From: Topomyia yanbarensis
Lineage: Eukaryota > Arthropoda > Insecta > Diptera > Culicidae
Direction of reading: 5' to 3'
DNA: 64,000 nt
NCBI RefSeq assembly: GCF_030247195.1
Contig: NC_080670.1
Location: 45,150,194-45,214,193, forward strand
The notes beneath the pieces were generated by a model. That model was given only the letters and a program-made list of their open reading frames with translations, was not told the origin of the DNA and made no database searches. The translations under genes were made by a program, and so were the position numbers. Numbering within the stretch: the stretch's first letter is position 1; the number at the start of each line of letters is the position of its first letter. Below are positions 1,434 through 39,060 of the stretch, piece after piece.

Positions 1434-1490
1434 TTTCTCCTTAATCGAGAACAATTTGGTAAAAACTATTTATTCTCGATTAAGGAGAAA
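1434..1490. repeat. Perfect 18-bp inverted repeat (hairpin)
   Basis: The arms at 1434-1451 and 1473-1490 (TTTCTCCTTAATCGAGAA and its complement) are separated by a 21-base spacer. They could form a strong hairpin. No coding context is visible; it may be a very short MITE or a remnant. Confidence 0.8.
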
Positions 1491-1538
1491 ATTGTTTAAA
1501 ACCATCTTTGCGCGTGAAGAGCACACAACCTATAACCA

Positions 1539-1720
1539 AATTAGTTATGGAATTGGCGTTTCGACTTCGTCTCATCAAAATCCGACACTAACTTATTTAA
1601 CGGCCTAAGCTAGGGCCGGATTTTGGAGCTAGTGTCAATCCAGCGCTAGCTTGGTCCGTTAACTAAGTTGGTGTTGGATTGTAATGAGATGAAGTCTAAA
1701 CGCCAATTCCATAACTGATT
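1539..1720. mobile_element. Palindromic MITE, TTTCGACTTCGTCTC family
   Basis: Inverted arms of about 60 bases face each other. The ends read AATTAGTTATGGAATTGGCG on the left and the near-complement on the right, followed inward by TTTCGACTTCGTCTC. The element is about 180 bp and has no coding capacity. The TTTCGACTTCGTCTC core recurs in two related repeats at about 50,505 and 54,602-54,775, so this is a dispersed family. Confidence 0.75.
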
Positions 1721-2699
1721 TAAAAAAAAAAACTGGCTTATTTTGACACTCCTACAGATCGCTTGTCACACGAAAACTTTTTGTGTAATTCGACAGCTTC
1801 TACTTAGGCCAATTCAAAAAAAATCCTACTTGAAAGTTTACTTTTTTTAAATACGGTTTTAAACCAAACCTTTGGAAGTTATACCTTGGCGTGGAAGAGC
1901 CGGTACTTAGTATAGAATTAGACTTCAACCTTTACGGCTATTGTACAACCGCCAGAATAAACCTAAAACGTTGCTACTCAATCGGGAATACTGAATCAGA
2001 AAAGGTGACAACATGTCAGTGATTTACTCAATATAAAATGAATAAAGTCTATGATGCAAAAACTTAAGGTCCCTCCAGGTTAAGTCTTCGATACGGCTCA
2101 ATACCTTTACCTAGGAACTCCTAGCATTTTACGACATGGGAGCAGGTTCCCAGTAGTTCTAGTCTTGGCTGATATAGTGAAAAAATATTAGCCCGCGGAC
2201 ACCACACGGCTTTCAATTGTGTGGTACACTGTCATTTTAGTAAAACTTACGCACTACACGGAATATCCACAGAATCAACACTGGTGGTAACGTCACAATT
2301 GCCTTTGGATGTGCCGTAAATTTTTTACTCAACTTTTACGCTTGGCATGGACGTCTGTTCTGTGCCTAAATTGAAGTTGCTTCTCAGTTTCGCAGGACCC
2401 GGAGGGAGCTTGGCCTTAAGCCCACTGCTCTGTCACCGATGTTACGTGATATTCGTTATGGTATATTGTTTGTATGAGCGCCCTTCATAAACAATGTCTC
2501 GCAGAATAGAAATAGTCTAAAATACATGCGTGCTGAACTTAAACTAATTCAGAGTATTCCGGGAAAACGAGTGGATCACAGATTTACTTGCAAGGGGCCG
2601 CAGATTTCAACAGCGGGTCGGCGGCAACTTTGCCCAGCGAATCTTCCTTGGTCTCGGTGATGCGCCAAAGCTGAGTTACACTGGCTTCGCCTTATATGT
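1721..2699. other. Intergenic, no gene recognised
   Basis: About 1 kb of sequence without a convincing ORF, RNA gene or repeat structure. Its last eight bases (TTATATGT, 2692-2699) match the sequence just after the LINE 3' end at 7682-7689 and probably are its target-site duplication. Confidence 0.5.
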
Positions 2700-2980
2700 C
2701 CCGGGCCCCGTGGTGGTGGAGGAACGCTACGTGGGAAGCTGAGCTGCAAGCAACCGGGCGGGTCATAGGTGGTGGATAATGCTTAATCGCGATAGCAACT
2801 AGTTGTGATTCGCGACCCGAACCAGCAGCGGGGGCTGACTGCGGGTGTGGTAGGACGAGGTAGTGGGCCCTATACGTCCTAGGCCTAAATACCACATGCC
2901 CTAAAGCAGCCCTGACAAGGCGAGCCAGTGCCGCCTTTAAATAAGCGCTTAGCCCAAATCCCTCTCCTCCCGTTATCCTT

Positions 2981-2997
2981 CCTTCCTTCCTTCCTTC
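2981..2997. repeat. Short (CCTT)n tract
   Basis: Four to five tandem copies of CCTT inside the LINE leader. It overlaps several mutually shadowing short ORFs in the leader, none of which resembles a known protein. Confidence 0.8.
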
Positions 2998-3814
2998 TGC
3001 GGCTGTTCGCCCATCTAAATATGGAAGCTGTTCTTCAATGTCAGCTTCTTTCACCGAACAGCCTAGATAAGCCATGTAGTGTCGGTAGTGGTTGTTTCAA
3101 CCGGCTAAGAATTACACTACGGACTACCTGTTTCAGTGGTAAAAATCTACCATACAGGGAACCCCAATTCCATAGTGTCATGCGACCCGTGCTATGGGTA
3201 AAATTGTTGAGGGGGTTTAAAACATTCTCAATGGCGAACGGAGCCTGGGAAGAGTCGGGCGAACTCCCCAGTACGCTGCATTACGCAGCGGAACGTTCAC
3301 TCTACACTCCGATTTTTTTCACCGATGATCCACTTAATTTTGCCGAATTTTTGTTGGCTGGGGGTTTGCAGAGACTCTCGGCTGATGGTAGTTCGGTGAA
3401 GTTTTGTTGAGTCTCGATTATCAAATTTCGATGTGTACAGATGAACCTGCCCAGAGGCCGTGTGGTATCCGGCCTAGAATTGAGCCACTGGAGTCCTGCT
3501 GCCATGTCGTAGGAGGCGACTGAAAGTAGGAGACCCTAAGTCAAGGTGTAGTTCCGTGCCGAGGACTTAATGATTGGAGGGTCTAAAATATGCCAGTCGC
3601 GCGCGGAGCATTTTGGGTTTTGCCCTTGCTGTGTTATGCGAATCTCTGACACAGTGGACCATTATTTTCTTCGCAAATCGTGGGAATCAAATGATCATGT
3701 CCCATTTAAACCTGATATGGCTCGCTAAATGCGTTAACATCCCAACTCGCTTGGTGTCCTCTAGTTGTTGTGCAATTTGTGTTGGAGATGAAATGTACAG
3801 TTCTCTAATCAACA

Positions 3815-6800
3815 ATGGTTAGAATAGCACAAGTCAATCTCCAACATAAACGTACAGCAACTATGAATTTATCTCGACTCATGCAGGAAGGTAAAGCTTC
3901 CATAGCATTGGTTCAAGAACCGTATTTCCATAAAGGAAACTTCTATTTTGGAAAGTTACTTAACACTGCCTTCATTGCTTACAACAAGACAGGCATGACT
4001 AACCCACGTGAAATGCCTCGTGCTTGCATTCTTGCAAATAAGGCTATTGACGCGTGTCTCATATCGGAGCTCACAACTCGCGATATCTGTGTTGTCACAG
4101 TTACATTGACTGTCGGAAACGTAGACAAGAAATATATATACTGTTCAGCATACCTACCGCATAACGAATCATCTCCTTCTGATGATTTCAAAAGCGTTGT
4201 ATCATATTGTAGCAGAAATGGGCTTCCGCTCATTATCGGCAGTGATGCGAATGCTCATCACATCATTTGGGGCAGCTCAGACATCAATCTGAGAGGCTCT
4301 GAACTGATGGAGTACATAAGTAGTACAAATCTCCATATTCTGAATGTGGGAAACCGACCAACTTTTGCGAGGTCTGGGAGGGAGGAGGTGTTAGACATAA
4401 CACTTTGCTCTGATAGAATTTTGCATGAACTGGGAAATTGGCAGGTTCCAAATGAAACTGAACCGTCTCTATCCGATCATAAATATATATTTTTCGAGCA
4501 TTTTGATGTCACCTTCAATGTGGTGACATATCGTAATCCTAAGTCTACAAACTGGGACCTCTTTTTGGAAAACTTAGCGACTAAATTTCATGGATATTTT
4601 CCAACAATTAGTCAACTAGACGACTTAGATGACGTCGTGGATACGACAAACTCATTCATATTAGCATCCTACGAAGAAGCTTGTCCACTTCGTACTGTTA
4701 AATCGACTAGGGGAACCCCTTGGTGGAGGGCTGAGCTTGATAGAATGAAGAAAGTTATGAGAAGAGCTTGGAACCGGCGTCAGCGTGATGACTCCAGGGC
4801 TTTCAGGTCAGCTCGTAGTGCATATAAGAAATGTCTTAGATCTGCAGAACGGGCTGGCTGGCAAAGCCTATGCACTAATGTCTCTAGTCTGAACGAGGCT
4901 AGCAGATTAAATAAAATTCTCTCCAAATCGAATGATTTTCAGATGAACTCCTTGAAAACCAGAGATGGTGTTTATGTGACAGACGAAAAAGATGTTCTTA
5001 ATTGTCTCTTCGACACACACTTTCCAGGTTGTATCGATCCGGAGTTGATCAATGTTCACAGATCTCATTCTGGTGATTCGGACTCGTGGGCGCTAGCACG
5101 CACATTGGTTTCCACTGAATCGGTCAAGTGGGCAGTTGACAGCTTTGCTCCATACAAATCACCCGGAAAAGATGGGATACTTCCCGTGCTACTGCAAAAG
5201 GGATTTGATATTCTTAAACATGTCTTGAAAAAGATTTTGCTTTCCAGTCTTGCTACCGGGTATATCCCGAAAGTATGGCGAGAAATAACTGTTAGATTTA
5301 TTCCCAAAGGGGGGCGCTCAAGCTATGAAGAAGCCAAGAGTTTTAGGCCTATCAGCTTAAGTTCTTTTCTTCTGAAAGCTTTGGAACGGATAATCGATCA
5401 TCACATCAGGAACGTTAGTTTAGTTGAATATCCTCTGCACAAAATGCAACATGCATATCAGTGTGGGAAATCCACGATCACTCTGCTTCACGATGTTGTT
5501 TACAACATTGAGAAAGCCTTCTCGCTCAAGCAATCTAGCTTGGGTGTATTCCTAGATATTGAGGGTGCTTTTGACAATGTGTCCTTCCAGTCTATTCTGG
5601 AAGCGACGCGCGGTCATGGGATACCTGCATGTATCTCAGGTTGGATAAACGCAATGCTTAGTAACCGCATACTTTGCTCGTCACTGCGACAGGCTGAGAT
5701 ACGGAAGTTGAGTATTTGCGGTTGTCCTCAGGGCGGCGTTCTGTCACCTTTGTTATGGAACTTAGTAGCTGACGGCTTGTTGAAGAAACTCAATGAGCTT
5801 GGATTTCCAACCTACGGGTTTGCTGACGATTACCAAATACTAATTACTGGATTTTGCATCGGAACAATCTTTGACTTGATGCAACAGGCATTAAGAGCTG
5901 TCGAACAGTGGTGTCGACAAGTTAAACTATCAGTTAACCCAAGCAAAACTTCAATGGTTCTTTTCATGAAGAAGCGAATAACAACCGGGGTTCGTCCCTT
6001 GCAGTTCTTTGATTCTGAGCTGCTGTGTGCAGATCAAGTCAAATACGTTGGAGTCATATTGGATTCCAAACTGAATTGGTCTGCTCACATTGAGTTCAGA
6101 GTCAAGAAAGCGTGCATGGCCTTCGGGCAGTGCAGACGAACTTTTGGAAAGACCTGGGGTCTCAAACCTAAATACATCTATTGGATTTACACGACAATTG
6201 TACGTCCAATACTGTCATACGGATGCCTTGTGTGGTGGCAGAGGGGAGAGGTGGTGACAGTCCAGTCAAAGCTAAACCATCTGCAAAGAATGGCGCTCAT
6301 GGCGTTGACTGGTGCTTTCACCACGACTCCGACTGCTGCTCTTGAGGCACTTCTAAATATCAAACCATTACACATACACTCAAAACAAGAAGCACTATCA
6401 TGTGCATACAGACTGCAGGTTACTGGGCTTTGGAACAGTAATCATGTTGATCTTGCTACCAGTCATACACGATTGTGGTCACAAATGGTTACATGGGGTG
6501 AAGATATTCTTGCTCCCAGCGATATTACACTCACTTGTAGTTTTCCTTACAGGACATTCCATGTTAAGATTCCCTCTCGAGAGGAGTGGTTGTCTGGCTT
6601 TATGGAAAGACAACAACAAACGCAAGTGGTTTGTTACACTGACGGTTCTCTGATGGAGGGACGTGCTGGTGCTGGTGTCTACTGTCGTGAAATGAGACTG
6701 GAACAATCTCACTCACTAGGTAGATACTGTACTGTATTCCAAGCAGAAATCTTTGCGATTATGTGCGGGGTGCAATCGGCCCTTCAACTGAGTTTGTCCG

Positions 6801-7459
6801 GCAGAGTTATAAACTTCTGCTCCGATAGTCAGGCTGCAATCAAGGCCCTTAGCTCAGACAAATCCCGGTCCAAGCTAGTGATCGCGTGCCGAACCCAAAT
6901 CGAAGAACTAAGCATTGTCAACACTATCTACCTTGTCTGGGTGCCCGGACATTGCGGTATTACTGGAAATGAATGGGCTGACGAATTGGCCAGGGCAGGT
7001 TCAGCGATTGACTTCATTGGTCCTGAGCCCGCGCTGCCAATTTCGACAAGTTGGATAAGGGAAAAAATACGGTCCTGGGCTTCGTCCGAGCACCGCAATT
7101 ATTGGAGAAATCTACAAACGTGTCGCCAAACAAAGGCGTTTCTAGAACAACCATGCCCAGTGGTTTCGAAAAATCTCTTACATTTTTCGAAGCTCCACTG
7201 CGGCATGCTGACCAGGGCTTTAACCGGCCACTGCAAACTCAATTATCACATGGCAACTATTCAGCGCGCTGAGTCTTTTTCATGTGATCTTTGTGAATCC
7301 GACTACGGAACTTCATATCATCTGATATGCAACTGCCCAGCGCTAGCGCAATTGCGATTACGAGTCTTCAGCCGTCCTTATATAGACGAAACCATGTTTG
7401 GTCGACTGAAACTCAGAGACATACTAAAGTTTCTTATCCAATGTGGTAAAGAGCTTTAG
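3815..7459 (+). CDS. LINE polyprotein: endonuclease, reverse transcriptase, RNase H
   Basis: This 1,214-residue frame has no internal stop. The N-terminal ~230 residues form an AP-type endonuclease: LVQEPYF near residue 34, SDANAHH near 143 and SDHKY near 219 carry the expected Glu, Asp/Asn and Asp-His. The central reverse transcriptase has IPKGG near residue 500 and the catalytic box GFADDY near 668. RNase H follows from about 938, with acidic residues in YTDGS, AEIFA, SDSQAA and NEWADELA. A C-terminal CX2C...HX4C knuckle lies near 1157-1175. The protein would nick the target and copy its own RNA there. The start at ATG 3815 opens directly into the endonuclease, so no gag domain is fused. 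An intact frame suggests recent activity. Confidence 0.93.
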   Translation: MVRIAQVNLQHKRTATMNLSRLMQEGKASIALVQEPYFHKGNFYFGKLLNTAFIAYNKTGMTNPREMPRACILANKAIDACLISELTTRDICVVTVTLTVGNVDKKYIYCSAYLPHNESSPSDDFKSVVSYCSRNGLPLIIGSDANAHHIIWGSSDINLRGSELMEYISSTNLHILNVGNRPTFARSGREEVLDITLCSDRILHELGNWQVPNETEPSLSDHKYIFFEHFDVTFNVVTYRNPKSTNWDLFLENLATKFHGYFPTISQLDDLDDVVDTTNSFILASYEEACPLRTVKSTRGTPWWRAELDRMKKVMRRAWNRRQRDDSRAFRSARSAYKKCLRSAERAGWQSLCTNVSSLNEASRLNKILSKSNDFQMNSLKTRDGVYVTDEKDVLNCLFDTHFPGCIDPELINVHRSHSGDSDSWALARTLVSTESVKWAVDSFAPYKSPGKDGILPVLLQKGFDILKHVLKKILLSSLATGYIPKVWREITVRFIPKGGRSSYEEAKSFRPISLSSFLLKALERIIDHHIRNVSLVEYPLHKMQHAYQCGKSTITLLHDVVYNIEKAFSLKQSSLGVFLDIEGAFDNVSFQSILEATRGHGIPACISGWINAMLSNRILCSSLRQAEIRKLSICGCPQGGVLSPLLWNLVADGLLKKLNELGFPTYGFADDYQILITGFCIGTIFDLMQQALRAVEQWCRQVKLSVNPSKTSMVLFMKKRITTGVRPLQFFDSELLCADQVKYVGVILDSKLNWSAHIEFRVKKACMAFGQCRRTFGKTWGLKPKYIYWIYTTIVRPILSYGCLVWWQRGEVVTVQSKLNHLQRMALMALTGAFTTTPTAALEALLNIKPLHIHSKQEALSCAYRLQVTGLWNSNHVDLATSHTRLWSQMVTWGEDILAPSDITLTCSFPYRTFHVKIPSREEWLSGFMERQQQTQVVCYTDGSLMEGRAGAGVYCREMRLEQSHSLGRYCTVFQAEIFAIMCGVQSALQLSLSGRVINFCSDSQAAIKALSSDKSRSKLVIACRTQIEELSIVNTIYLVWVPGHCGITGNEWADELARAGSAIDFIGPEPALPISTSWIREKIRSWASSEHRNYWRNLQTCRQTKAFLEQPCPVVSKNLLHFSKLHCGMLTRALTGHCKLNYHMATIQRAESFSCDLCESDYGTSYHLICNCPALAQLRLRVFSRPYIDETMFGRLKLRDILKFLIQCGKEL

Positions 7460-27033: not shown

Positions 27034-28023
27034 CAGTGAGCAAATTTTCTGGCAGAGACCGCTCTGCTACATTTCTGTAAGTCTTGGTTTGGCAGCCCTG
27101 TCAGATTTTTGCGCGTATCCTGTCGGGTTAGTTGAGCTAGGGCGAACTCGGTTTTGCTCGCCTTTTCTGGCAAATTTTGATAGGCACCGAGCAAAATCCT
27201 GGCATAACTCGGACATAAACTGTGCAAAGATCCTGGCAATTCCTACCTGGTAGAATTTAGCACGAATCGAGCAAAAAATCTGACAAAGATGTGGCAGGAA
27301 GCGTGCAGAGATCTTGGCCGTACATTTCTGGCTGGATTCTGGATAAAAGTGAGCTACATCGGTTGTTTTAACCGCTTCTGTCAGAAACGGTTGTTGCATT
27401 TGAGCGAATTCGTTGCCAGAATTCTCGCACAAATCGCGCAAAATGCTCGCAGAAACTCTGCCAGCATCAATTTCGCTTTGCTCAACTTTTGCTAACTTTC
27501 TGCTTGCCACGCTGACCGGGCAGCTCAATCCCGGTCAGCGTGGCAGCAGTTAGCAAAAGTTGAGCAAAGCGAAATTGATGCTGGCAGAGTTTCTGCCAGC
27601 ATCAATTTTACATTTTGCGCGATTTGTGCGAGAATTCTGGCAAAGAAATCGCTCAAATGCAACAACCGTTTCTGACAGAAGCGGTTAAACCAACCGATGC
27701 TGCTCACTTTTATCCAGAATCAAGTCAGAAATGTATGGCCAAGATCACTGCACGCTTCCTGCCACATCTTTGTCAGATGTTTTGCTCGATTCGTGCTAAA
27801 TTCTACTAAGTAGGAATTGCCAAGATCTTTGCACAGTTTATGTCCGAGTTATGCCAGGGTTTTGCTCGGTTCCTGTCAAAATTTGCCAGAAAAAGGCGAG
27901 AAAAACCGAGTTCGCCCTAGCTCAACTAACCCGACAGGATACGCGCAGAAATCTGACAACGCTGCCAAACCAAGACTTACAGAAATCTAGCAGAGCGGTC
28001 TCTGCCATAAAATTTGCTCACTG
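27034..28023. mobile_element. 1-kb foldback element
   Basis: Two arms of about 480 bp are inverted copies of each other around a short centre near 27,515-27,545 (CACGCTGACCGGG / CCCGGTCAGCGTG). The ends read CAGTGAGCAAATTTT and complement. The arms are rich in the words CTGGCA and GAGCAAA and show scattered differences. The right arm has a small extra palindrome near 27,575-27,610. Frames on both strands mirror each other and are not genes. No transposase and no clear duplication at the ends. Confidence 0.88.
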
Positions 28024-28288
28024 CGATTTCTTATATGTAGGGTAAAAGAGGTATTTTAGCCTTCCTAATAAAAAAAATTATACACGAACTTATAATCTAA
28101 CGATTCCACATATTCTTTGGATTATACTCTGAACAGGTCCTTAGGCTCTTGGATCATAAGATGTTTATTAGGGCCACCTTAGGACATAGTTTTGATATCT
28201 TGCGAAAAAGACATAACGACTGCAAAGGTTTGTAAAAATACTCATGTACAATATCGACTTACATCTGACCATCAATCCAGATCTCTTA
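28024..28288. other. Intergenic, nothing recognised
   Basis: AT-rich DNA between the foldback element and the next small MITE. Confidence 0.5.
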
Positions 28289-28405
28289 AGCGGCCATTAC
28301 ACGTTCAATATTTTTGTCAATGCCATACAACTTTTTCCATTACACGTACAATACTTTTATCAATACTCTAGTATTGACAAAAATATTGAACGTGTAAGGG
28401 CCGCT
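28289..28405. mobile_element. 117-bp MITE related to the 13.6-14.5 kb family
   Basis: The ends AGCGGCCATTACACGTTCAA and the near-complement resemble the AGCGGACCCTACACG termini of the self-nested family, and the interior again holds ATATTTTTGTCAAT. The symmetry extends outward to CTCTTAAGCGG, so the true boundary and target-site duplication are uncertain. Confidence 0.75.
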
Positions 28406-28681
28406 TAAGAGCCGCTTTAAAAACGTATCATTTACTACGAAATCAATAAACATGGTATTTTTCATGATTTTTTTTTTCTATTGCCGCCACCTAGGGGCAG
28501 ATCACTTGTGATACATTTTTAAAAATCAGCTAAATTAAATGCATTTCTTTCCATCAAAATAGAAATTCATAATGTATTTTGCGTTGCGTGCAATATATTT
28601 TGCGTTGCGTGTAAGACGCCAAATCCCTACAAAAACTTAGCCCTACATTCAACAAAACGTCGAACAAAGTGAATCAGCGTA

Positions 28682-28816
28682 TGTTGTGGTTCGTGTTCGT
28701 AGGTGACCGATAGAGAAGATTACACGACCCACACGTTAAAACATATATATACTTTATTTAAAATAGAGACGCGAACAAACGGAGAGGTAAAATATGCGTA
28801 TTACTTATAGTATGGT
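28682..28816 (-). repeat. Outer half of the split left LTR
   Basis: It matches 38,276-38,410 with one mismatch (GTTCGTAGG against GTTCGGAGG) and ends in AGTATGGT, where the 4.9-kb insertion begins. Confidence 0.92.
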
Positions 28817-29059
28817 CAAATACAAATATGTTAATACGGAATGCTCTGATGATTTTTCGAGGACTCGTTTTACGCTACCCTGTACCTGGAAAGGTACAGT
28901 GTCAAAGTGACAGTGCACTTTGATGAATTATCATTGAAACTGGCAACGCAGAACGCCAAGCTGTTTATTATTGTATCCTAGTGATATTTTTGTTATTCCT
29001 TTTTTTTTTATTTACGTGAAAGTTTTTCTTTCTCACGATGTTATTCGTTGTAATTGTAA

Positions 29060-30460
29060 TTGTAATTTAGTTTGCATTTTCGACGTGAAATGTACAAAGG
29101 CACCGAGGTTGAGTTGATTCTGGGTTGCCTATCAGTGCTGGCCAGTTTTGCCCTGTGGCTGCTGGTAGCAACTTTATTCAATCCGCCGATTTCCGGAACG
29201 CACAGCATCGTAGGTTCGACTATCGGTTTCAGTCTGGTTGCCCGTGCAATGCAAGGACTCAAGTGTAGCACACTCGGAACGATCGCCGGATCGTGGTTCA
29301 TTTGACCCGTGCTCAGTGGTATGATGAGCGTGATGTTGTTCTGGTTCATTTGTAGATTCATTTTGAACGCCAGAAACCCGCTCAAGGCTGGGCTGTTATC
29401 ATTGCCGCTGTTTTACGGAGCCACACATGGCAGTTAACGTATTCAGTATTGTGCACGAAGGACCGAAGCTGCTCTACATGGATAACATCACAACTTGGAT
29501 GGCGGTAGTTATTAGTGTTTCCGTAGGACTATTGATTGCTGTACTCGTGCAGCGTTTTGTCGTTCCTTGGCAGAAGAACGAGATTCTGAATCAGAACAAA
29601 GTCACACACACTGAATTCATTGTCGGTGATTCGGATTGTGATTCGTCGTCAAACGGAAGTCCGCGGCGAACAAAATGTCCACTTTTCTTGGTAGGCGATG
29701 GAAAAACTACCAGCTGCTACCAAAACGACTGAACTGGTAGAACTGTCCTCTTCGCACCTGCACAGCGGATTGATTAAGAAGCTTTCGTCTCCGCATGCAA
29801 TCAAAAAACAAACCAAATCCGTACAAGATCGATCCGAAAATTGTGAAGAAAGCAAAAACCCTACTTTCAACCAACCAAATCGGTCTGGATAACACCAATC
29901 TGACGATAACCAGCCTAAACTACATCGATGAGTATCAGGCAACGATTAATGAGAAATCTCCTACTTGCTCCAAGAGTGATAGTACTCTTCCGATAGCCGA
30001 TTACACGCTGGTGACGCCAAATATTGTTTTGAACGGTACCGACAAAGATCTCAGGAATTATATTGGAAGAATTGAAAATGCAGCTGGATTGGATCATACA
30101 CTAATCAGTACGACCCTGTATCAGGATTCGAGTAAAGTTCCTTAAATTAGTGGTAAGTAAGATTTGGAAGAGAGCAGACACAATCCAATGAAGGAGGAAA
30201 ATAAGGCAGTGTCAGCCCTATTTTCGTTCCTGCAGATACTGACTACGACTACGTTCGGAGTGGTAACGATGTGCGTAACGCGATAGGACCACTAATTGCT
30301 CTCTTTATGCTCTACCGGGAAGGCTCAGTATTGCAAAAGTCTGAAACTTCGCTTGCATTACTACTGTACGGTGGCATCGGTATCTCACTAGGTCTGTCGC
30401 TATGGGACCGTCGTGTTATAGAGACGATTAACTTCTACTTCTTCCCTTGTAGGCGGGAAA
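29060..30460 (+). pseudogene. PiT sodium-phosphate cotransporter fragment
   Basis: Several plus-strand frames together follow a PiT (PHO-4 family) transporter: LVATLFNPPISGTHSIVGST and GLKCSTLGTIAGSWF, a stop, then an open continuation (RFILNARNPLKAG), a frameshift, AVNVFSIVHEGPKLLYMDN and a membrane segment, then a polar loop in shifted frames. The last part is ALFSFLQILTTTTFG and GNDVRNAIGPLIALFMLYRE, the second PiT signature. N- and C-terminal parts are absent. No intron could be recognised within the piece, but part of it could be a single exon. At least one stop and three frame changes make it non-functional. Confidence 0.82.
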
Positions 30461-30811
30461 CTTGTTTTTCTTTTAAAAATATGCATTTAGTGTTGTAGAT
30501 TCTTAAAAAAGCGGCGGAAAGCGAAAATTTTAATAATTCATTAATAAGCTTAAAAATAAATTGTACCTACTAACCTTGCTCGTATGTTTATTGTGAAAGT
30601 AAGGCTTTTGGCGAAGCTAGCTTAATGCGACTATGCCGCATAACCGAGTCCACGGATCCGAAGCGGCGCAAAGCCGTTGAGGATCCGACGGACGAGGTGG
30701 CTTTGTTGCTTATCAACGGAATCGCAAGCAAATCTGTGATCCACTCGCTCGCCCGGTATACTCAAACATAGGGGCTAACCCTAGTTTAAGTCCGACAGCA
30801 CTAGAAAAAAT
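30461..30811. other. Unassigned segment with a GC-rich patch
   Basis: Between 30,600 and 30,780 the composition becomes coding-like (AAGCGGCGCAAAGCCG and neighbours) and a plus-strand frame of about 55 codons is open, but I cannot name it. It may be a third captured fragment. Confidence 0.35.
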
Positions 30812-30925
30812 CGATGTGGCGTAGCCACATTAGGCATTAACAATGTCTTATTTAGTAACAATAGAATAGTACTCATTAACAAAAAATAAAATATTGTCGC
30901 TGTCTAATGTGGCTACGCCACATCG
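30812..30925. mobile_element. 114-bp MITE with hairpin termini
   Basis: The ends CGATGTGGCGTAGCCACAT and complement are inverted repeats of 22 bp. Each terminus is also a palindrome on its own (ATGTGGC-GTA-GCCACAT). The interior is AT-rich. No clear duplication at the ends. Confidence 0.8.
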
Positions 30926-31777
30926 TTTCATTCGTGTGCTGTCCGCTCAGGTTTCCGTAGGAACCAACTTGGTTTGGTGTGTCACAAATGACAATCACGT
31001 TTGGTTATTGGATCTAGTACCGAAGCGAAGACGTACGGGTGAATGTTAGACAAATATATAATTTGCAGAAGTAGTCCAATAAATAATGTAACATAACGAG
31101 TGACATATGTTGATCGGCCATCAGTGGACCAACCGCAGGCAAATTTAACAAAAATATTATGAAAGTTTGTAGCTAGGCAGCAGTTTTTAGAAAACACAAC
31201 TATGCCTTAGATAAAATTTAGAACGCAGATGAGAACTATAATATGCTTAGAAGTTTAACGAATAGAAAATGCTGCAAATATGTTTACAACAAACTTACCG
31301 GGAATGTGGAATGATGTGAGCTATTGTAAAAAAGATTATAACTATTACCTTCAGGTCGCATGCCGCTGTTAACCCTCCAGCATTCGCGCGAATGGCTCCC
31401 CTAATGAGCAGCTGCTGTTGCCGAAAGATTTCGCTAGAAATTCAGGTTTTGAACTAAATACAACGGCGCGAGCGCCTGAGAGTTGACACCGATGGTTTAT
31501 TATCTTGCTCTTACCTATACTAGGCCCATTAGTTTGACACATATTGCCCCGGCAATATCGAAACCCCATGTTTCAGACCTTGAATACATGGAGACAGTAG
31601 CGCTTTGCTCCCACTAGTAGTTATAATCTCTTGTTATTGCACTTGACTTTTCAATGATATTGTAGTCACAATCGAGTAAACGTTTGTATTTCCACGTTTT
31701 CAATTACATTTTTGCTTGCAAGCAATAAAAGCATATTGTTTTCCGATTTCTCTAGATTTATTCAAACCATTGATTAA
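30926..31777. other. Unassigned interior of the 4.9-kb insertion
   Basis: The stretch holds a more GC-rich island at 31,350-31,570 that ends, on the minus strand, at a donor-like AAGGTAATAG. I cannot identify a protein. It might be a non-coding exon taken along with the captured DNA. Confidence 0.35.
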
Positions 31778-31873
31778 GGGCCGATTTATTCACCCTCGCG
31801 TAGCGCTTAAGCCAGGTTTAAACGTACTGGTGAACCTGACTTAAAATTTAAGCGAGGGTGAAGAAATCGGCCC
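31778..31873. mobile_element. 96-bp Harbinger-like MITE, copy 2
   Basis: Same family and length as 12,049-12,144 but reversed. It is flanked by TAA at 31,775-31,777 and 31,874-31,876. It sits at the edge of the PAN2 fragment inside the 4.9-kb insertion. Confidence 0.85.
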
Positions 31874-31894
31874 TAAAACACATAAATAATAAAT

Positions 31895-33350
31895 TAACAC
31901 TTTTTCAACGTCGTCAGTCTCTTGTTGCTAAAGATTGCATCCAGATCGCCTGGTTTAATTCCGAAGAATTTTGTCAGATAATCGACAATCTGCTCCTGAG
32001 TGGAGATGTAATCATCGACGAAGGAACTCGTTCATCTTTACCTTGCCCGCGGATACACGTGATCTTAGCAACACTCATGTGACGAGGTTTTTACGGTGGA
32101 CATTTTACCATCGGACCGGATTTCTCTCTCCTCCGGATTCAAAGTAACAAATTCAGCATACATTGGCACCAAGTCACCCGATTCAAAGATCTATTTTTCA
32201 CCCAACGGTTTGTCACCTTGGTTTTCCCTGGAGTATGGTAACAGATCAATTGTGAATTGATTTACCTACTGAGTCAAACATTACTTATTCTTTCCTTGTT
32301 CGTTCCTGAGTGCGGTACTGGTATAAAACAGAACGCATGGAACCTTCCAATCCAGTGTAAACCAAACCGCTTCCTGCGCGGACACCGGGAAAATACTAAA
32401 ATCATTGCATATGTACCAGTCCCCTCCACTTCGATCCGTTTTGAGATCATGATAGCTCTTTGGTATGTGCACCAAAGCTACCTGATTACGCTGAGTTCTG
32501 TCATTGATGTAGCAAACGGTCGCCGACAAGCGATACTTTTCGATTTTCGAAACGGCATATCTGAAATGTAGAAGATTTCAAATTGTTGCTACTACGGAAT
32601 ATGCTCTGACTCGTTTAGTTTGCAGCTTTCGTGAGCATCAGAACCTTCATAACAGCTGGAAGCAGTTTTCAATTTTAAAATTCTTCTCATCCAATGTCAT
32701 TCAGAAGCCTAGCGGAAAGCATGATTTCTGCTGACCTTGATTAGACGCATTCGACGGTGGGAGTTTTCTGTAATATTAGACGATTAGACGAACAACGTAA
32801 AATATTACAGGACCTGTGGTAACAACATTCAGGTTCAAGGAATCTCACCTCGGATGGAAAAAATGGCAATCTACCCGAGAGCAGTGCATCCCGTAACGAC
32901 ACATTTTCACATTTTCCCATTATCTACGTTTGCACCATTTCGCGAGTCCCCATCGCTAGACACTTGGGCAGAGGACCGCGGCATTTGTTTCTTTGTTTCT
33001 AGATACTCAAATTCTTTGTCCGTCTCCAGACCGCAGCTAACCGATAGAATTTTCGGCAGATCAGCCACACGACTCTTTCGATTAGTGGAGTGAACTTGTT
33101 GCGCTTCTTACACCAGGACGGTGTAGTTTTTTCAACGACATATAATTTTTAAAAATTTACGCAAATGTTCCGTCGATATGTCGGTTGTTGGTGTTGGTAG
33201 GATACAGGAGATTGCACACCAGGATATTATTTTTAACACTTTCGGTGTTGCAGTTGAAGCAACGTTGGGTGGTTTTTTGTTGAGTGCCGAACAGGCGACT
33301 GATTTCCGGTTCATCCTTGTTTTTTTTGAGTAGGTTGTGCTTCTTTTGCT
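31895..33350 (-). pseudogene. PAN2 deadenylase fragment (USP-like to exonuclease domain)
   Basis: Read on the minus strand in protein order, the pieces match PAN2: RLFGTQQKTTQRCFNCNTES and NLLYPTPTTDISTEHLRKF (33,314-33,132), VADLPKILSVSCGLETDKEF and CRYGMHCSRVDCHFFHP (33,090-32,860), GGDWYICNDFSIFPVSAQEA (near 32,430) and the exonuclease start [11 protein letters not shown] followed by [17 protein letters not shown] (32,160-31,950). PAN2 is the scaffold and nuclease of the PAN2-PAN3 poly(A)-shortening complex. An intron-like piece (GTGAGATTCC to ATTACAG, about 32,850-32,770) seems retained, which would favour capture from genomic DNA. Stops and frameshifts are frequent. Confidence 0.82.
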
Positions 33351-33702
33351 ATCTCAGTTTCGGCTGCCAACGTCGGATCGTAATCTTACGAGAAGAGATT
33401 ATATTGCGCGAGAAGAGATTATTTAAAGAAACCACACAACTTACCACTTCTGGCCACTAAACGATATCGAACCACAAATCTGCACAGACACAAACAAATG
33501 TCAACAAAAAAATTATTATTAAATTTAAGAACGGCATGCTCTGATCGGATTTATCAAAATGTGTTGCCATTTCTTATTACTTTTCAGTGTTTGTTGGTTG
33601 TCAAGCAAAATCCATGAATAGGGTTCATTAAATCTAGTTTTCGGAGAGCCAAAAAATGATTACCCTTTCATATGGGACCTTGGCGTATTTAATTTGTATT
33701 TG

Positions 33703-33829
33703 GTATGGTATATCACATTCTGATTCCTGACCGGATGCTGTTCGGTGCGTCAACTGAGTGACAGGCGGGCTGCCACCAGTGAGCCCAGCAATTCCTGTTG
33801 AGTTGTAGGGATGTTCACGTCTCCAACAT
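33703..33829 (-). repeat. Inner half of the split left LTR
   Basis: The sequence resumes with the duplicated GTATGGT (33,703-33,709) and then matches the remaining 119 bases of the right LTR without visible difference. Confidence 0.92.
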
Positions 33830-33837
33830 CTCCCCTC

Positions 33838-35055
33838 CTAATACAGCTGATAGGGCTCGAACCATTGCGGAGCTCTTCGGACACGCGAAGAGCGGCGAGG
33901 TACCTGAACAGCTGAATCGGCTTCATTTGCAGACTGAAATTCTGATGTCGAACTTGGCGATGTTGAAGATGAAGAAGACGATACTGATAACTGTGACGAT
34001 GACTCCGATGATAAGGTAGGCCTTCTCACCAGAGTATTTGGTGTTGACGATGGTCTCAAACTAGAGCAGCTTGTAAGAGGTGCTACTGGTGTTGAGTGTG
34101 CTAATGGATCCGTTGTACGACGAACCGGAAGATTCCAAGCATCAAGTAGAATGTTGAGTGGAAGTTTCGTACTATCTGTCGATGTCGATACGTTGAGATC
34201 CTCCGATATAGCGCGATCTCGAAGCTGGTTAACATGGGAGCGAACAAGCCTTCTATTGTCGAGCTGAACGTTGTACATTACACGACCTATACGTTCCAGT
34301 ACTGTTCCTGGAGCCCAGTGCCATTGATTTTTAACGAAGACTTTTGCGTATACCGGATCTTTAGCTTTGAACTCACGCTTCAAGGGTCGGCTCTCGCTAG
34401 GCTGTTCAAACTGCACAGAATCTGGTGGAGGACGGAGTAGATCCAAACTGGTACGGATCGGACGACCGAACATGACTTCTGCTGGCGATTTTCCATCCGG
34501 AGAAGAAAAACAAGGTGTGCTCCGGTAAGTCAGCAAAAATGTACTGAGTGCTTCACGCATTGTCGCTCTCCCCTCCTTAATCTTCTTTATTGACCGTTTG
34601 AATGTATCCACAAACCGCTCAGCTTGACCGTTCGATTGTGGGTGAAACGGCGCAGTTGTGAGATGCTCGATACCGTTATCCGTACAGTAGGATTGAAATT
34701 CTGCACTGGTGAACTGTGAGCCGTTGTCGCTCACTAGTGTCTCTGGCATTCCCAAGCGTGCGAACAGTTCTCTGATGATTTTGATTGTAGCGGCTGTAGT
34801 GATGCTGCGAGTCTGCACAATCTCAGGCCACTTCGAAAAAGAATCCACGACGACCAAGTAGTATTCCCCGTCGATCGGTCCAGCATAGTCAAGATGTACA
34901 CGCTGCCACGGTTTTGTTGATTTAGGCCAAGACAAAGGCGCTGACTTCGGTGGTGTTTTTGCAGCCATCGCACATTGATGGCAGGATTTAACATAATCAA
35001 CAATGTCGTTATCGAGAGTTGGCCAATAAACATAAGACCTGGCAATCGCCTTCAT
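33838..35055 (-). CDS. Gypsy integrase (C-terminal part of pol)
   Basis: This open stretch of 405 codons contains CHQC of the zinc-binding domain and a complete DD35E triad: Asp56 in HLDYAGP, Asp110 in LVSDNGSQF and Glu146 in NGQAERF. A basic, Ser/Thr-rich C-terminus follows. It is the 3' part of the pol gene. In the upstream codons a TGA (around 35,219) and the RNase H linker lie in the way, so it would not be made as part of a complete polyprotein. Confidence 0.88.
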   Translation of the reverse strand: MKAIARSYVYWPTLDNDIVDYVKSCHQCAMAAKTPPKSAPLSWPKSTKPWQRVHLDYAGPIDGEYYLVVVDSFSKWPEIVQTRSITTAATIKIIRELFARLGMPETLVSDNGSQFTSAEFQSYCTDNGIEHLTTAPFHPQSNGQAERFVDTFKRSIKKIKEGRATMREALSTFLLTYRSTPCFSSPDGKSPAEVMFGRPIRTSLDLLRPPPDSVQFEQPSESRPLKREFKAKDPVYAKVFVKNQWHWAPGTVLERIGRVMYNVQLDNRRLVRSHVNQLRDRAISEDLNVSTSTDSTKLPLNILLDAWNLPVRRTTDPLAHSTPVAPLTSCSSLRPSSTPNTLVRRPTLSSESSSQLSVSSSSSSTSPSSTSEFQSANEADSAVQVPRRSSRVRRAPQWFEPYQLY

Positions 35056-36552
35056 TCGCTGGATTCCAGGGTGGCCACGATGAAGCTGCTGAAGACTGCG
35101 CTTGCGATGGGGCGAAGGAATAACAAGTCGATCGCCAAATAGTATGCAGCCTTGTACCGTGGTAAGTGACTCACGTCGTGCATAAAACCGCTTGAGCTCT
35201 GCATCAGTAACGGTCTCAGGTCAACCGTCAATCAGGTATCGATAAACTGCTTTGGTGATAGGATCGGACTGTGTAGACTGTTGTACGATTCTAAAACTCA
35301 GAGGGAGAACGGTTAGTGTATCTTGTGTAACTGACCTTAAGTCATTCTCCAAAGAGACCGAAGCAATCACGTAATCTTCCTCAGGTCTGACGTGCTGGTT
35401 GATCAGACGGGAAAGTATGTCAGCATTGCCGAATTTCGCTGTCGGGACGTACTCGATGGTGAACTCATAAAGCAATAGCGTAAGAGCCCAACGTTGTAAC
35501 CGGTTCGATGTGTAAACAGGAATTCCTTTCTTCGAACCGAAAATCCTCAGCAGCGGTTCGTGATCACCCTCTAAGAACGGTTGGTTTCAAAATCGTCCAA
35601 TGAAGGACGTTCGTTGGACCAATTTGGACATCGTCCAAATAACCGTTCAACGAACGTCCATAATTGGACCCGTGTTGAACGATTTTGAAACAATTTTTTG
35701 GACTTCTCAGTGGGCAGTCTGAAGATGAAAGCGACGACCAAACAACATTTTGTGAAATTTAGTCACTGCGAAAATTATTGCAAGTCCTTCACGATCGGGC
35801 TGACTATAGTTTTTCTCTGCTGCTGTGAGTGCTCTGGAGGCATGCTGTACCACCTTGAGAGTACCGTCCGGAAACTTGTGTGATAATGTTGCACCGACAC
35901 CAACAGACGACGCATCTGCCGACACAACTATATCAAGCGCAGGGTTGTAGTGAGTCAACAGTAGATCGGATTTCAATACCTCTTTAAATTTGTTAAATGC
36001 CGCCTGGCATTTTTTCGTCCACTCAAATTTTGCATCCGCCTTGAGTAGCTCATCAAGAGGATACCGAAGGGTGCGCATACTAGGAACAAACTTGCCGTAG
36101 TAATTTATTGCTCCTAGGAGAGAACGAACACCGGAAACGTCAGTGGGCGGTGGCATTTCGTTGATGGCTTGAACCTTTGATGGATCCGGGCGAAGACTGT
36201 TGCGGTCAAGCAGATGACTTACATATTTAATTTGCGGCTGAGCGAATATGCACTTTTCTACACGAATGGTAAAACCAAAATCGCTGATCCTTTGAAACAC
36301 TGCATGAAGGTTCGCCCAGTGATTTTCAGGATTTACACCACCAACGACGACGTCATCTAGATAACCACACGTATGAGGGAGGCCTGCCAGCATAGTATCG
36401 ATAAGTTGCTGGAATGCTCCCGGTGCTGCTTTGACTCCCGGTGTCAGACGGTTGTACCGGTAAAGTCCCCGATGGGTGTTGATGGTTAACAATTCACGGC
36501 TGCTTTCGTCCACTTCTACCTGGACGCTTTGCACGAAAAACTGGAGTTGCAC
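35056..36552 (-). pseudogene. Gypsy reverse transcriptase/RNase H, internally deleted and interrupted
   Basis: The frame at 36,552-35,707 begins near VQVEVDESSRELLTINTHRG and has the RT box GYLDDVVVGG, then RNase H starting at DIVVSADASSVGVGA. Compared with related elements, the RT segment between FRAKRP (end of the upstream frame) and QVEVDESS is missing, a loss of roughly 75-100 residues. A palindromic insert at 35,587-35,696 separates the RNase H end from the linker at 35,475-35,221, which ends in an in-frame stop. Confidence 0.83.
35587..35696. mobile_element. About 110-bp palindromic MITE in gypsy pol
   Basis: The termini GTTTCAAAATCGTCCAA and, complemented, GTTTCAAAATCGTTCAA enclose repeats of GGACGTTCGTTG and TTGGAC. 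It breaks the RNase H region of the gypsy element. A truncated relative lies at 41,875-41,965. Confidence 0.8.
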
Positions 36553-36922
36553 CTGGTATTAGTTCCAATTTCACTTTTGTTTTCGTACACAACCCCAGCT
36601 CGCTCCTAAACACCCTCGGGTATGCTGATTTGAGTGACTGCAAAGTGACAGAAGGAACAGTGACGTTGTTGCAGTACGTGCTAATGGGCAGTGACCAGAG
36701 ATCGAATGCATCCATCAAATCGATGCCAAGAAGGTAAAGTGGTTTTTCAACAACGTAAAACTGACCGGTATGTTGTTTGCCATTGAAAGAAATGTCACAA
36801 CTGAACTTAAACAAAAACTGCAAGCGGTCGCCTGACGCTGTTGCGGCTTGTTCGTTTGCCGGCACTGTGGGTGGTTTACCTATTTTCTCCCACAACCGTT
36901 TCGAAATTATAAGCATAAGCAT
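36494..36922 (-). pseudogene. Gypsy protease/N-terminal pol segment, frameshifted
   Basis: The frame continues the protease after the DTGSD active site as IISKRLWEKIGK and runs to LLGIDLMDAFDLWSLP and ELIPGATPVFRAKRP. It lies in a different frame from gag. At the junction the minus strand repeats the hexamer CTTATG, and this small tandem expansion appears to cause the shift. Confidence 0.8.
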
Positions 36923-38205
36923 AAGTCAGACCCCGTGTCCAACTGCAGACGCACATTTACACCGTTCAACATCACAGTAACAAAACGGCGCCTTTTATCG
37001 ACGGTATTAATCACAAGACTTACGCTTTTTGTAGCATACGATCCCGGGTGCTTTTTGTTTCGACTGGCTTTGGATGTTCGTTTGGCAGTGGAACAATAAC
37101 CCTCACGGTGTCCGACAATACCACAATCTTTGCATTTGTGGCTCCTATGAGTGCAGTCTCGAACGAAATGCATTCCTCCACAGAACCAGCAGGGCGTTGA
37201 GGGAATGTTTTTGTCGGGTCGGGCTGTCTCCACTGGCGGTTTATGTTGATGCTTTGAAAATTGTTTTCGCTTGATGAAATTTACCGATGACGGTGGTGCT
37301 GATGACTCGATCATTGCCGTGTCCCGCTTTAGGCACAACAATCGCTGACAGTCTTCCGAAAGATGATCGAGAGTGATGTCATCGCGTTCCTCAATTTTCG
37401 ACAGTAGCCGCGTTCGTATTTCGCTGTCTCCTTCCGACTTTAAACCGCAAACAAACATAAGACATTTGAACTGCTCCTCGGTAAGTTTGCTTAGCTCGAA
37501 TTCAACGCAGGTCTTGTTGATTCGGCAAGCATATGTGACGTAATCGTCGGTCGGTTGTTTGGTAACCTGCAAACACCGATACCGTTTACTGATGACGGAC
37601 TCTGCAGCGCCGAAAAGGATTTTTAGTTTTTCATCTGTATCAGCAAATTTGTAGTCCTTCGGCAATTTCGGCAGGATGTAACTCACATATCTTTCGTGCT
37701 CAGATGATCCGAGTTTTCGCATGAGCAAGCGGACTTTCGCTTCATCGTCCAGCCGTGCAGCATCTTGCTCGAACAAATCGTCGTATCTGCCGTACCATGC
37801 AGCGAAGGTTATGTTTCCATCCGGATCGTAGCGAAACTCTTTGATATTGTTTGCTAGTGAATCGAGAATCATTTCAGGGTTTGGGGGGACCTGAATACTG
37901 ATTGATGAGATGACACTCCGGAAGAAATCTTGCTGCTGCTGCATTAACTGTTGTTGCTGCTGCTGCATGAATACCTGTTGCTGCTGCATTAACTGCTGAA
38001 AGAGCTGATAGGATGCTTCGGCGGAAGACGAACTGGTACTTGAAGATTGCTGCGCTGATGGTGGACCGTTGAAAAATGGAGCTGAATGCCGCTGATGATT
38101 TTGCTGCATTCCCGGGTGTTGTGGGTTTACTCCTGGCGGTAGTGGACCGCCTGGCAAGCCGTTTCCCGGCTGATGCTGCTCCGGATTGAGGTTAGATTCC
38201 GCCAT
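36907..38205 (-). CDS. Gypsy Gag plus start of protease
   Basis: 432 codons from ATG at 38,205. The N-terminal 110 residues are Gln/Pro-rich (runs of QQQQ encoded by CAG repeats), followed by a capsid-like helical region (FAAWYGRYDDLFEQDAARLD), then two zinc knuckles (CWFCGGMHFVRDC and CKDCGIVGHREGYC) and the protease active site LQLDTGSD. The frame ends just after this, due to the hexamer expansion. In related elements gag and pol are one frame or joined by a programmed shift. Confidence 0.88.
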   Translation of the reverse strand: MAESNLNPEQHQPGNGLPGGPLPPGVNPQHPGMQQNHQRHSAPFFNGPPSAQQSSSTSSSSAEASYQLFQQLMQQQQVFMQQQQQQLMQQQQDFFRSVISSISIQVPPNPEMILDSLANNIKEFRYDPDGNITFAAWYGRYDDLFEQDAARLDDEAKVRLLMRKLGSSEHERYVSYILPKLPKDYKFADTDEKLKILFGAAESVISKRYRCLQVTKQPTDDYVTYACRINKTCVEFELSKLTEEQFKCLMFVCGLKSEGDSEIRTRLLSKIEERDDITLDHLSEDCQRLLCLKRDTAMIESSAPPSSVNFIKRKQFSKHQHKPPVETARPDKNIPSTPCWFCGGMHFVRDCTHRSHKCKDCGIVGHREGYCSTAKRTSKASRNKKHPGSYATKSVSLVINTVDKRRRFVTVMLNGVNVRLQLDTGSDLCLCL

Positions 38206-38275
38206 GCTTTCCGTTTACACGTGGGTGATAAATATTGGCTTTCGATCGCCAATTTTACTAAATTCTCGTCGCCAC

Positions 38276-38529
38276 TGTTGTGGTTCGTGTTCGGAGGTGA
38301 CCGATAGAGAAGATTACACGACCCACACGTTAAAACATATATATACTTTATTTAAAATAGAGACGCGAACAAACGGAGAGGTAAAATATGCGTATTACTT
38401 ATAGTATGGTATATCACATTCTGATTCCTGACCGGATGCTGTTCGGTGCGTCAACTGAGTGACAGGCGGGCTGCCACCAGTGAGCCCAGCAATTCCTGTT
38501 GAGTTGTAGGGATGTTCACGTCTCCAACA
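38276..38529 (-). repeat. Right (5') LTR of the gypsy element
   Basis: 254 bp with TGTTG/CAACA ends and a TATATATA stretch near 38,336 that might be part of its promoter or poly(A) region. It is the undamaged reference against which the split LTR is recognised. Confidence 0.9.
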
Positions 38530-38665: not shown

Positions 38666-39060
38666 GCAAATTTGCAAATATGTTGGCAATGGCAACAATT
38701 TTGCAAACATATTATCGCCCAATTCATGTATACTCGCAGTAATTTGATATTGTTGGAATGAACTACCATCATAAGAATGAAGAATATATAATTAGAAAAT
38801 TCTATTGAATCTCTGAATAAAGGCTCCATCTCAATCATATAGCATGTATCTGCCAAGTCATTCCAATCGAGTAAGAATTTTGCAAACATATTATCGCCCA
38901 ATTCATGTATACTCGCAGTAATTTGATATTGTTGGAATGAACTACCATCATAAGAATAAAGAATATATAATTATAAAATTCTATTGAATCTCTGAATAAA
39001 GGCTCCATCTCAATCATATCGCATGTATCTGCCAAGTCATTCCAATCGAGTAAGATACCA
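38666..39060. repeat. 179-bp tandem duplication
   Basis: The units 38,701-38,879 and 38,880-39,058 begin TTGCAAACATATTATCGCCC and are nearly identical (differences such as GAATGAAG against GAATAAAG and ATAGCATG against ATCGCATG). There is no coding capacity. It follows directly after the target-site duplication of the nested structure. Confidence 0.9.

Follow-up and report, generated by a model that had tools for sequence, protein, structure and literature searches.

How does a transposon with no visible transposase come to carry pieces of two unrelated host genes, and does such a unit stand alone or belong to a family? The question is raised by a 4,886-bp element in the genome of Topomyia yanbarensis, a sabethine mosquito (assembly 1.17 Gb). 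The element lies within a 64,000-nucleotide stretch of contig NC_080670.1 (C1 below; positions 45,150,194 to 45,214,193), which we call the window, and it holds fragments of the genes for PiT and PAN2. Our analysis makes it highly probable that the element belongs to a large Pack-type family, non-autonomous, which holds assorted host DNA between shared ends and is moved in trans, probably by a P-type transposase. The ends recur in the genome, flanked by target-site duplications (TSDs), and the insertion has an empty counterpart. Cargos vary between elements and the parent genes lie on other contigs; the introns of PAN2 are kept in the captured piece and those of PiT are lost.

The element and its insertion site consist of the following parts.

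28817..33702, plus strand: complete non-autonomous DNA transposon of 4886 bp, from its ends, TSD and empty site
28810..28816, no strand: left TSD, GTATGGT, from sequence comparison
33703..33709, no strand: right TSD, GTATGGT, from sequence comparison
28817..28827, plus strand: left terminal inverted repeat (TIR), CAAATACAAAT, 11 bp and perfect, recurring genome-wide
33692..33702, minus strand: right TIR, ATTTGTATTTG, recurring genome-wide
28817..28956, plus strand: left end, about 140 bp, kept across elements with differing interiors (23-element alignment)
33538..33702, plus strand: right end, about 165 bp, kept across elements with differing interiors (23-element alignment)
30430..31898, no strand: middle stretch between the PiT and PAN2 pieces, with hairpins at 30794-30943 and 31771-31880 (inverted repeats I4 and I5)
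28682..28816, minus strand: part of a long terminal repeat (LTR) on one side of the insertion, from repeat comparison
33710..33828, minus strand: LTR part on the other side of the insertion, from repeat comparison
38276..38529, minus strand: partner LTR with one GTATGGT, the empty site, from repeat comparison

The original prediction, made from the sequence alone, had described a 4,886-bp unit with 11-bp perfect inverted termini and a 7-bp GTATGGT duplication, and this is what the sequence contains; the inverted termini extend imperfectly across 22 columns with one 3-nt gap and one mismatch. It had also proposed fragments of two host genes in opposite orientation and no visible transposase. 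Both hold: Pfam finds PHO4 on the plus strand and UCH_1 (PAN2) on the minus strand, and no transposase domain in the nine frames scanned. The element interrupts a young LTR retroelement on the minus strand (28682-38529), which is flanked on both sides by the 5-bp sequence GCGTA and whose 254-bp LTRs are identical at 253 of 254 positions. The split LTR (28682-28816 plus 33710-33828, together 254 bp) differs from its partner at a single position. Because the partner LTR represents the empty site, the element must have entered after the retroelement and moved recently. Its cargo is much older than this last move, since the Kimura two-parameter (K2P) distances of the captured pieces to their native genes are 0.098 for PiT and 0.112 for PAN2, against the near-identity of the LTR pair. 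The prediction of a recent move with old, broken cargo is thus borne out.

A genome search with the termini, which the prediction had recommended, shows that the ends recur. A 33-bp pattern from the left end has 379 genome matches at up to 3 mismatches, and a 32-bp pattern from the right end has 481; the reversed patterns have none, which excludes chance termini. The description of a single unit was therefore incomplete: the ends of this family number in the hundreds, and its cargos are many. From 100 perfect places listed per end, 34 left/right pairs were matched by eye on position and strand, and we read 29 of these together with six pairs from 200-bp searches. These 35 elements were selected for the quality of their ends, and most are located on C1 and a portion of C2 (L numbers mark elements and other loci). 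In all 35, each chosen for having both ends, a target duplication lies exactly at the ends: 32 are perfect 7-bp duplications, two are 7 bp with one mismatch, and one, in L051, is a perfect 8-bp duplication (GTCGAAAC). The 34 duplications of 7 bp lean toward GTATTAC: 30 of them have T as the second base and 27 have A as the sixth. Palindromic pairs number 50 of 102, compared with a shuffle mean of 26.9, and none of 10,000 shuffles reaches 50; the count mixes orientations and uses one form of each of the two mismatched duplications. Two places with a left end only, L036 and L037, share an identical left flank, with the left end inside another repeat, and were not counted as elements.

Between these ends, the elements differ. 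When the window copy is aligned with 22 other elements, the conserved stretches measure about 140 bp at the left end and 165 bp at the right. We compared the interiors of 27 elements (these 23 plus L065 and L073-L075) after trimming 250 and 300 bp from the ends, and they fall into 20 groups: 14 singletons and six groups whose members share at least 300 bp (L041/L059, L049/L073, L045/L057, window/L038/L065, L044/L054 and L042/L046). Four further cases overlap by less, 120-290 bp. Of the copies read, eight are close relatives of the window copy and form with it a window group of nine; close copies differ from it by K2P distances of 0.034-0.064. Cargo-bearing groups have inserted repeatedly. Two of the copies, c3_182 (L027/L034/L012) and c3_181 (L028/L035/L013), contain a 1.78-kb insert with ends CACAGTGG...CCACTG and a 5-bp duplication, CGCAG, which we take to be Transib-like; the window copy is empty at this site.

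Nine host genes were recognised in the family. We scanned with Pfam the 150 longest of 274 open reading frames (ORFs) of at least 60 residues from 22 elements, and obtained matches to 19 families, including COQ7, thioredoxin domains, a papain-type protease, UCH_1 (PAN2), TFIIS_M, RasGEF_N/RasGEF, C2H2 zinc fingers and a DEAD helicase. No transposase or reverse transcriptase domain was found in these 150 ORFs. Of 309 additional ORFs we also scanned the 150 longest, less eight from the PiT region of L065; these 142 yielded three weak, unlikely matches and no transposase domain, and the scanned ORFs of the three longest elements read (5.4, 6.4 and 8.3 kb) are likewise free of one. Outside the window group, host cargo was recognised in nine of 26 elements: L038, L041, L043, L048, L051, L058, L059, L060 and L065 (PiT). 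The thioredoxin cargo of L041 and L059 is PDIA3, with the host's own PDIA3 protein, which lies on a contig as long as C3, as best match; in L059 a 235-bp gap starting with GTAAGT separates residues 331 and 333. L060 has a DEAD helicase domain by Pfam and a likeness to DDX19 on reading of its translation, and L048 has zinc fingers by Pfam and COQ7 on reading. The cathepsin-B-like protease of L051 and the TFIIS of L043 were also assigned by reading translations. L038 represents a second gene-packing group, in which a RasGEF gene with apparent introns is joined to a longer PAN2 piece and sits at the position that PiT takes in the window copy. In L058, a 305-bp stretch of PAN2 at 86.6% escaped the ORF scan. 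As a control, 148 window ORFs outside the retroelement gave mainly retroelement domains, together with FSH1 and Abhydrolase_2, ubiquitin and a weak zinc-finger match; the FSH1/Abhydrolase_2 match is a host gene, and this control is one gene-containing window, not a random genome sample.

From what kind of template was the cargo copied? The two pieces in the window copy give different answers. The PAN2 piece comprises these features.

31899..33460, minus strand: PAN2 piece in genomic form with three native introns, equivalent to native stretch L014:1461-3080
33385..33444, minus strand: retained native intron 1 of the captured piece, from alignment and junction test
32768..32848, minus strand: retained native intron 2 of the captured piece, from alignment and junction test
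32561..32614, minus strand: retained native intron 3 of the captured piece, from alignment and junction test

The native PAN2 gene, located within C3:6881211-6885789 (L014), has long open frames and the domains PAN2_N, UCH_1 and RNase_T; the captured piece aligns to it through three native introns of 60, 65 and 57 bp. In a junction test of 11 copies, the exon-plus-intron donor form outscores the spliced form in 32 of 32 cells (L038 is without junction 1); for the acceptor form the count is 28 of 32. The PAN2 piece was captured from genomic, intron-bearing DNA. The capture of genomic DNA that had been predicted from an "intron-like stretch" is therefore upheld for PAN2, where that stretch proves to be three native introns.

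The PAN2 piece of L038 is longer on both sides, covering native L014 1083-3674 with gaps, compared with 1461-3080 in the window copy, and we accordingly rejected an inner PAN2 border common to the two. L038 and L058 do have a common border at native 1083/1084, 266-267 bp from the right terminus; in the window group the border falls at native 1461, and its distance to that terminus is 242 bp. The L038 piece has K2P distances of 0.175 to the native gene and 0.174 to the window copy, so that the PAN2 piece of the window copy is closer to the native gene than to the L038 piece. One old capture that was later trimmed in the window lineage and two separate captures both fit these data.

The PiT piece has a different history.

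29074..30429, plus strand: PiT/SLC20 piece, residues 80-575 of 692, in spliced form with a broken frame
29469..29470, plus strand: exon junction, native intron 1 (56 bp) exactly absent
30275..30276, plus strand: exon junction, native intron 3 (58 bp) exactly absent

The native PiT gene is at C2:315388986-315400582, where the host PiT protein matches exon by exon at 95-99%; three of the six rows of this match hold one stop each, which we read as run-over into introns. Within the captured stretch the native introns measure 56, 69 and 58 bp, and a fourth lies near residue 587. The window copy lacks introns 1 and 3 exactly, has a deletion over intron 2, and stops short of intron 4. Wherever a junction is fully present in the PiT copies tested, the spliced form matches at 40-56 of 60 positions and the intron forms at 30 or fewer; the least secure case, at 40 of 60, is the window copy's junction 3, which adjoins a small deletion. 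Spliced junction 1 is present in eight of the nine window-group copies (c3_162 is without it) and in L029, L030, L062, L063 and L065-L067; junction 2 in L030, L031 and L061-L063; junction 3 in eight of the nine window-group copies, L030, L061-L063 and L065-L067; and junction 4 in L061 and L065-L067. L030 and L062 are one and the same place. The copy L040 has no junctions, and junction 2 of L029 is broken, with scores of 22, 22 and 13. A length difference near PiT position 860 was considered as an intron in other copies and rejected, as it is a window-group deletion that also covers native intron 2. L031 (C2:202.86 Mb) was likewise rejected as the native gene; it is a decayed, spliced PiT copy beside exons that, by eye, resemble a RIC1-type gene.

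These junctions show that the PiT template was derived from spliced RNA at least once, whether as cDNA or as an older retrocopy, so not all of the cargo came from intron-bearing genomic DNA. The alignment of cargo with intact genes that had been suggested as a check thus gives a split result, and the idea of purely genomic capture needs correcting. The piece begins at cDNA position 231 in 14 of the 17 sequences tested, at 237 in L031 and L063, and at 245 in L061, which is broken. Downstream, the matches extend at most to cDNA 1885, and to 1732 in the window group; the stop codon is at 2083. The exact loss of introns is a feature of processed pseudogenes; the 3' end of an mRNA with poly(A) is absent from the piece. 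Since the piece includes neither end of the mRNA, it is not a complete retrocopy that inserted into the element.

Retrocopies are common in genomes, and PiT could have been captured as ordinary chromosomal DNA from an older, retrotransposon-made processed pseudogene instead of directly from cDNA during repair. We consider the chances of this evenly balanced. Such a source would account for the exact absence of introns. The outer parts of the protein argue against it: residues 634-692 match only the native gene (64 of 95 candidates scored), and residues 1-76 match only the native gene except for a weak 53% match, over residues 39-163, at the L061 copy. With these terminal residues matching essentially the native gene alone, no retrocopy extending beyond the captured interval is seen among the 64 of 95 candidates scored. 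The copies also begin at nearly one cDNA position, and the longest stop short of the stop codon. A retrocopy that has since been lost or has diverged would give an identical pattern.

Other explanations concern the architecture of the whole element. A segmental duplication with chance termini is vanishingly improbable. The duplication lies at the exact ends, the partner LTR is empty and the ends recur; moreover, an origin from adjacent genes is refuted because native PiT (C2:315.39 Mb) and native PAN2 (C3:6.88 Mb) are on different contigs, which favours the Pack-type pattern that had been predicted. It is also very unlikely that the ends of a former element were filled by nested insertion and deletion of unrelated DNA, instead of by capture one at a time. 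Elements of the family do hold nested insertions and deletions, of which the Transib-like insert is an example. Against such filling, identical ends with TSDs surround differing interiors, the nine copies of the window group carry cargo and ends together in separate insertions, and intron-bearing host-gene DNA stops only about 240-267 bp short of the right terminus in the window copy, L038 and L058. Movement of a Pack-MULE family by a Mutator-like transposase, as with Muta1 in Aedes aegypti, deserves somewhat more weight and is still unlikely. Derivatives of Muta1, a mosquito element, have only their ends, the TIRs, in common, and about 20% align with host genes (PMC5225508); the variable interiors of the window family match this architecture. 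However, Mutator-like elements (MULEs) typically have TIRs longer than 100 bp and TSDs of 8-10 bp, and Muta1 reinserts without apparent target preference, with TSDs of 8-9 bp and a known active autonomous copy (PMC5225508). The window family has an 11-bp perfect TIR, TSDs of 7 bp in 34 of 35 elements (8 bp in the other), and a palindromic, GTANTAC-like target.

The P superfamily is the most likely source of the transposase that moves the family, as judged from the 7-bp duplication and its palindromic GTANTAC-like motif; TSDs of 7-8 bp with such a motif are a trait of this superfamily. Galileo and 1360, both P-superfamily elements, have palindromic 7-bp TSDs with the consensus GTANTAC/GTATTAC, and the 8-bp duplication of L051 is paralleled by three 8-bp Galileo copies (PMC4168063). 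Unlike the window family, Galileo has very long TIRs and is described as containing pieces of transposable elements, with no host genes in the accessible account (PMC4168063). P elements and P-type miniature elements (P-MITEs) of Anopheles gambiae are similar in being mosquito P-type elements with non-autonomous members whose centres are unrelated; they differ in their 8-bp TSDs and 27-31 bp TIRs, and their centres are not reported as host genes in the accessible text (PMC1562414). Topomyia yanbarensis has candidate sources of transposase: with 150 of 305 candidates scored, PF21787, the P-type transposase domain, has 153 matches genome-wide. Many of these have long open frames, and several form pairs whose scores and frames are equal. 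Among the listed matches and ends, the shortest distances seen between a PF21787 match and a family end are 9.9 kb (C1:135.09 Mb) and 12.5 kb (C1:29.32 Mb).

Several results weigh against a Pack-type family moved by a P-type transposase. The autonomous relative with the same ends, for which the original prediction had advised a search, did not appear among the matches listed and loci read. Compared by eye, no listed PF21787 match is less than 9 kb from a listed end; this comparison covered 100 of the 379 left and 100 of the 481 right ends, every match (31 and 3) of two exact patterns of greater length, and the 150 transposase candidates scored out of 305. Five P-type transposase loci, read over 5.5-6 kb each, contain no 20-bp end at up to 3 mismatches, and the 6 kb around the P-type transposase at C1:135.09 Mb, which is near a right end, contain no 20-bp family end at the same threshold. 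The 11-bp perfect TIR is shorter than the TIRs of the Anopheles P elements; TIR length varies widely in the P superfamily, as Galileo illustrates, and an 11-bp TIR is therefore compatible with membership. Outside the window group, 17 of 26 elements have no recognised host gene among the ORFs scanned, by a Pfam detection that misses short exons and non-coding DNA. Finally, the PAN2 acceptor form scores below the spliced form in four of 32 cells: junction 2 of c3_182 and c3_181, and junction 3 of c3_162 and L038.

If a P-type transposase does move the family, it would act in trans through the conserved 140-165 bp ends, by the cut-and-paste transposition that the TSD suggests. Cargo could enter when an excision gap or a stalled fork is repaired by switching templates. 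For PAN2 the template was chromosomal DNA of the usual kind; for PiT it was DNA derived from spliced RNA, as a cDNA or as a retrocopy of earlier date. A survey of animal Pack-TIRs (Tan et al. 2021) ascribes the multicopy cases to transposition after replication fork switching, and refers to two reports of activated Drosophila P elements acquiring sequence through transduction or gap filling (PMC8277862). We offer, tentatively and with considerable doubt, the broader idea that the family would be a P-type, cut-and-paste system for packing genes in general in this sabethine mosquito. Its gap repair would copy chromosomal DNA and spliced-RNA-derived cDNA alike, so that a single element could join an intron-bearing piece from one gene to a spliced piece from another and spread the fusion.

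Other repeats and open frames of the window are as follows.

3809-7459: open frame of 1,216 residues that reads as a non-LTR retrotransposon
27034-28023: foldback of about 990 bp with arms 94-98% complementary
28283-28411: 39-bp inverted pair with 51-bp spacing, 97% complementary
38694-39051: direct tandem pair of 179 bp, 98% identical

Endonuclease-reverse transcriptase, reverse transcriptase and RNase H domains are also present among the window ORFs.

Pack-type elements are already known, insects included, so the statement that they are rarely described in insects needs qualifying. The animal survey lists 370 Pack-TIRs in 100 reference genomes, none of them in insects; only four are multicopy, and most are hAT or TcMariner (PMC8277862). 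Muta1 MULEs of Aedes aegypti (PMC5225508) and Ssk-FB4 of fly populations (PMC8277862) are insect cases. Like the window family, Ssk-FB4 of Drosophila is a DNA transposon with TIRs and pieces of host genes; its TSD is 9-10 bp and its TIR about 700 bp (PMC8277862). The window family differs from the surveyed Pack-TIRs in its hundreds of ends, many cargos, 7-bp P-like target and spliced-plus-genomic chimera. An arthropod MULE study makes no mention of Topomyia in its accessible text (PMC13359780). Among the literature matches listed, which cover subscription journals thinly, we found no earlier P-type gene-packing family in an insect and no spliced capture, and no earlier report in Topomyia genome papers. 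A large P-like family that packs genes appears to be a previously undescribed variant of these elements.

In plants, much gene shuffling stems from DNA transposons that pack genes. In the animal survey such packing was rare and mostly single-copy, and it was not seen in insect reference genomes; its presence in insects is nevertheless shown by Ssk-FB4 and Muta1 (PMC8277862, PMC5225508). A family whose ends number in the hundreds, with nine host genes recognised in the small set of elements read, would make Topomyia yanbarensis a test bed for the mechanism of capture. The contrast between a spliced and an unspliced piece within one element is a direct mark of the templates used, and bears on how host sequence enters transposable elements. 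Because a cargo-bearing copy moved recently, the process itself may be observable in this mosquito.

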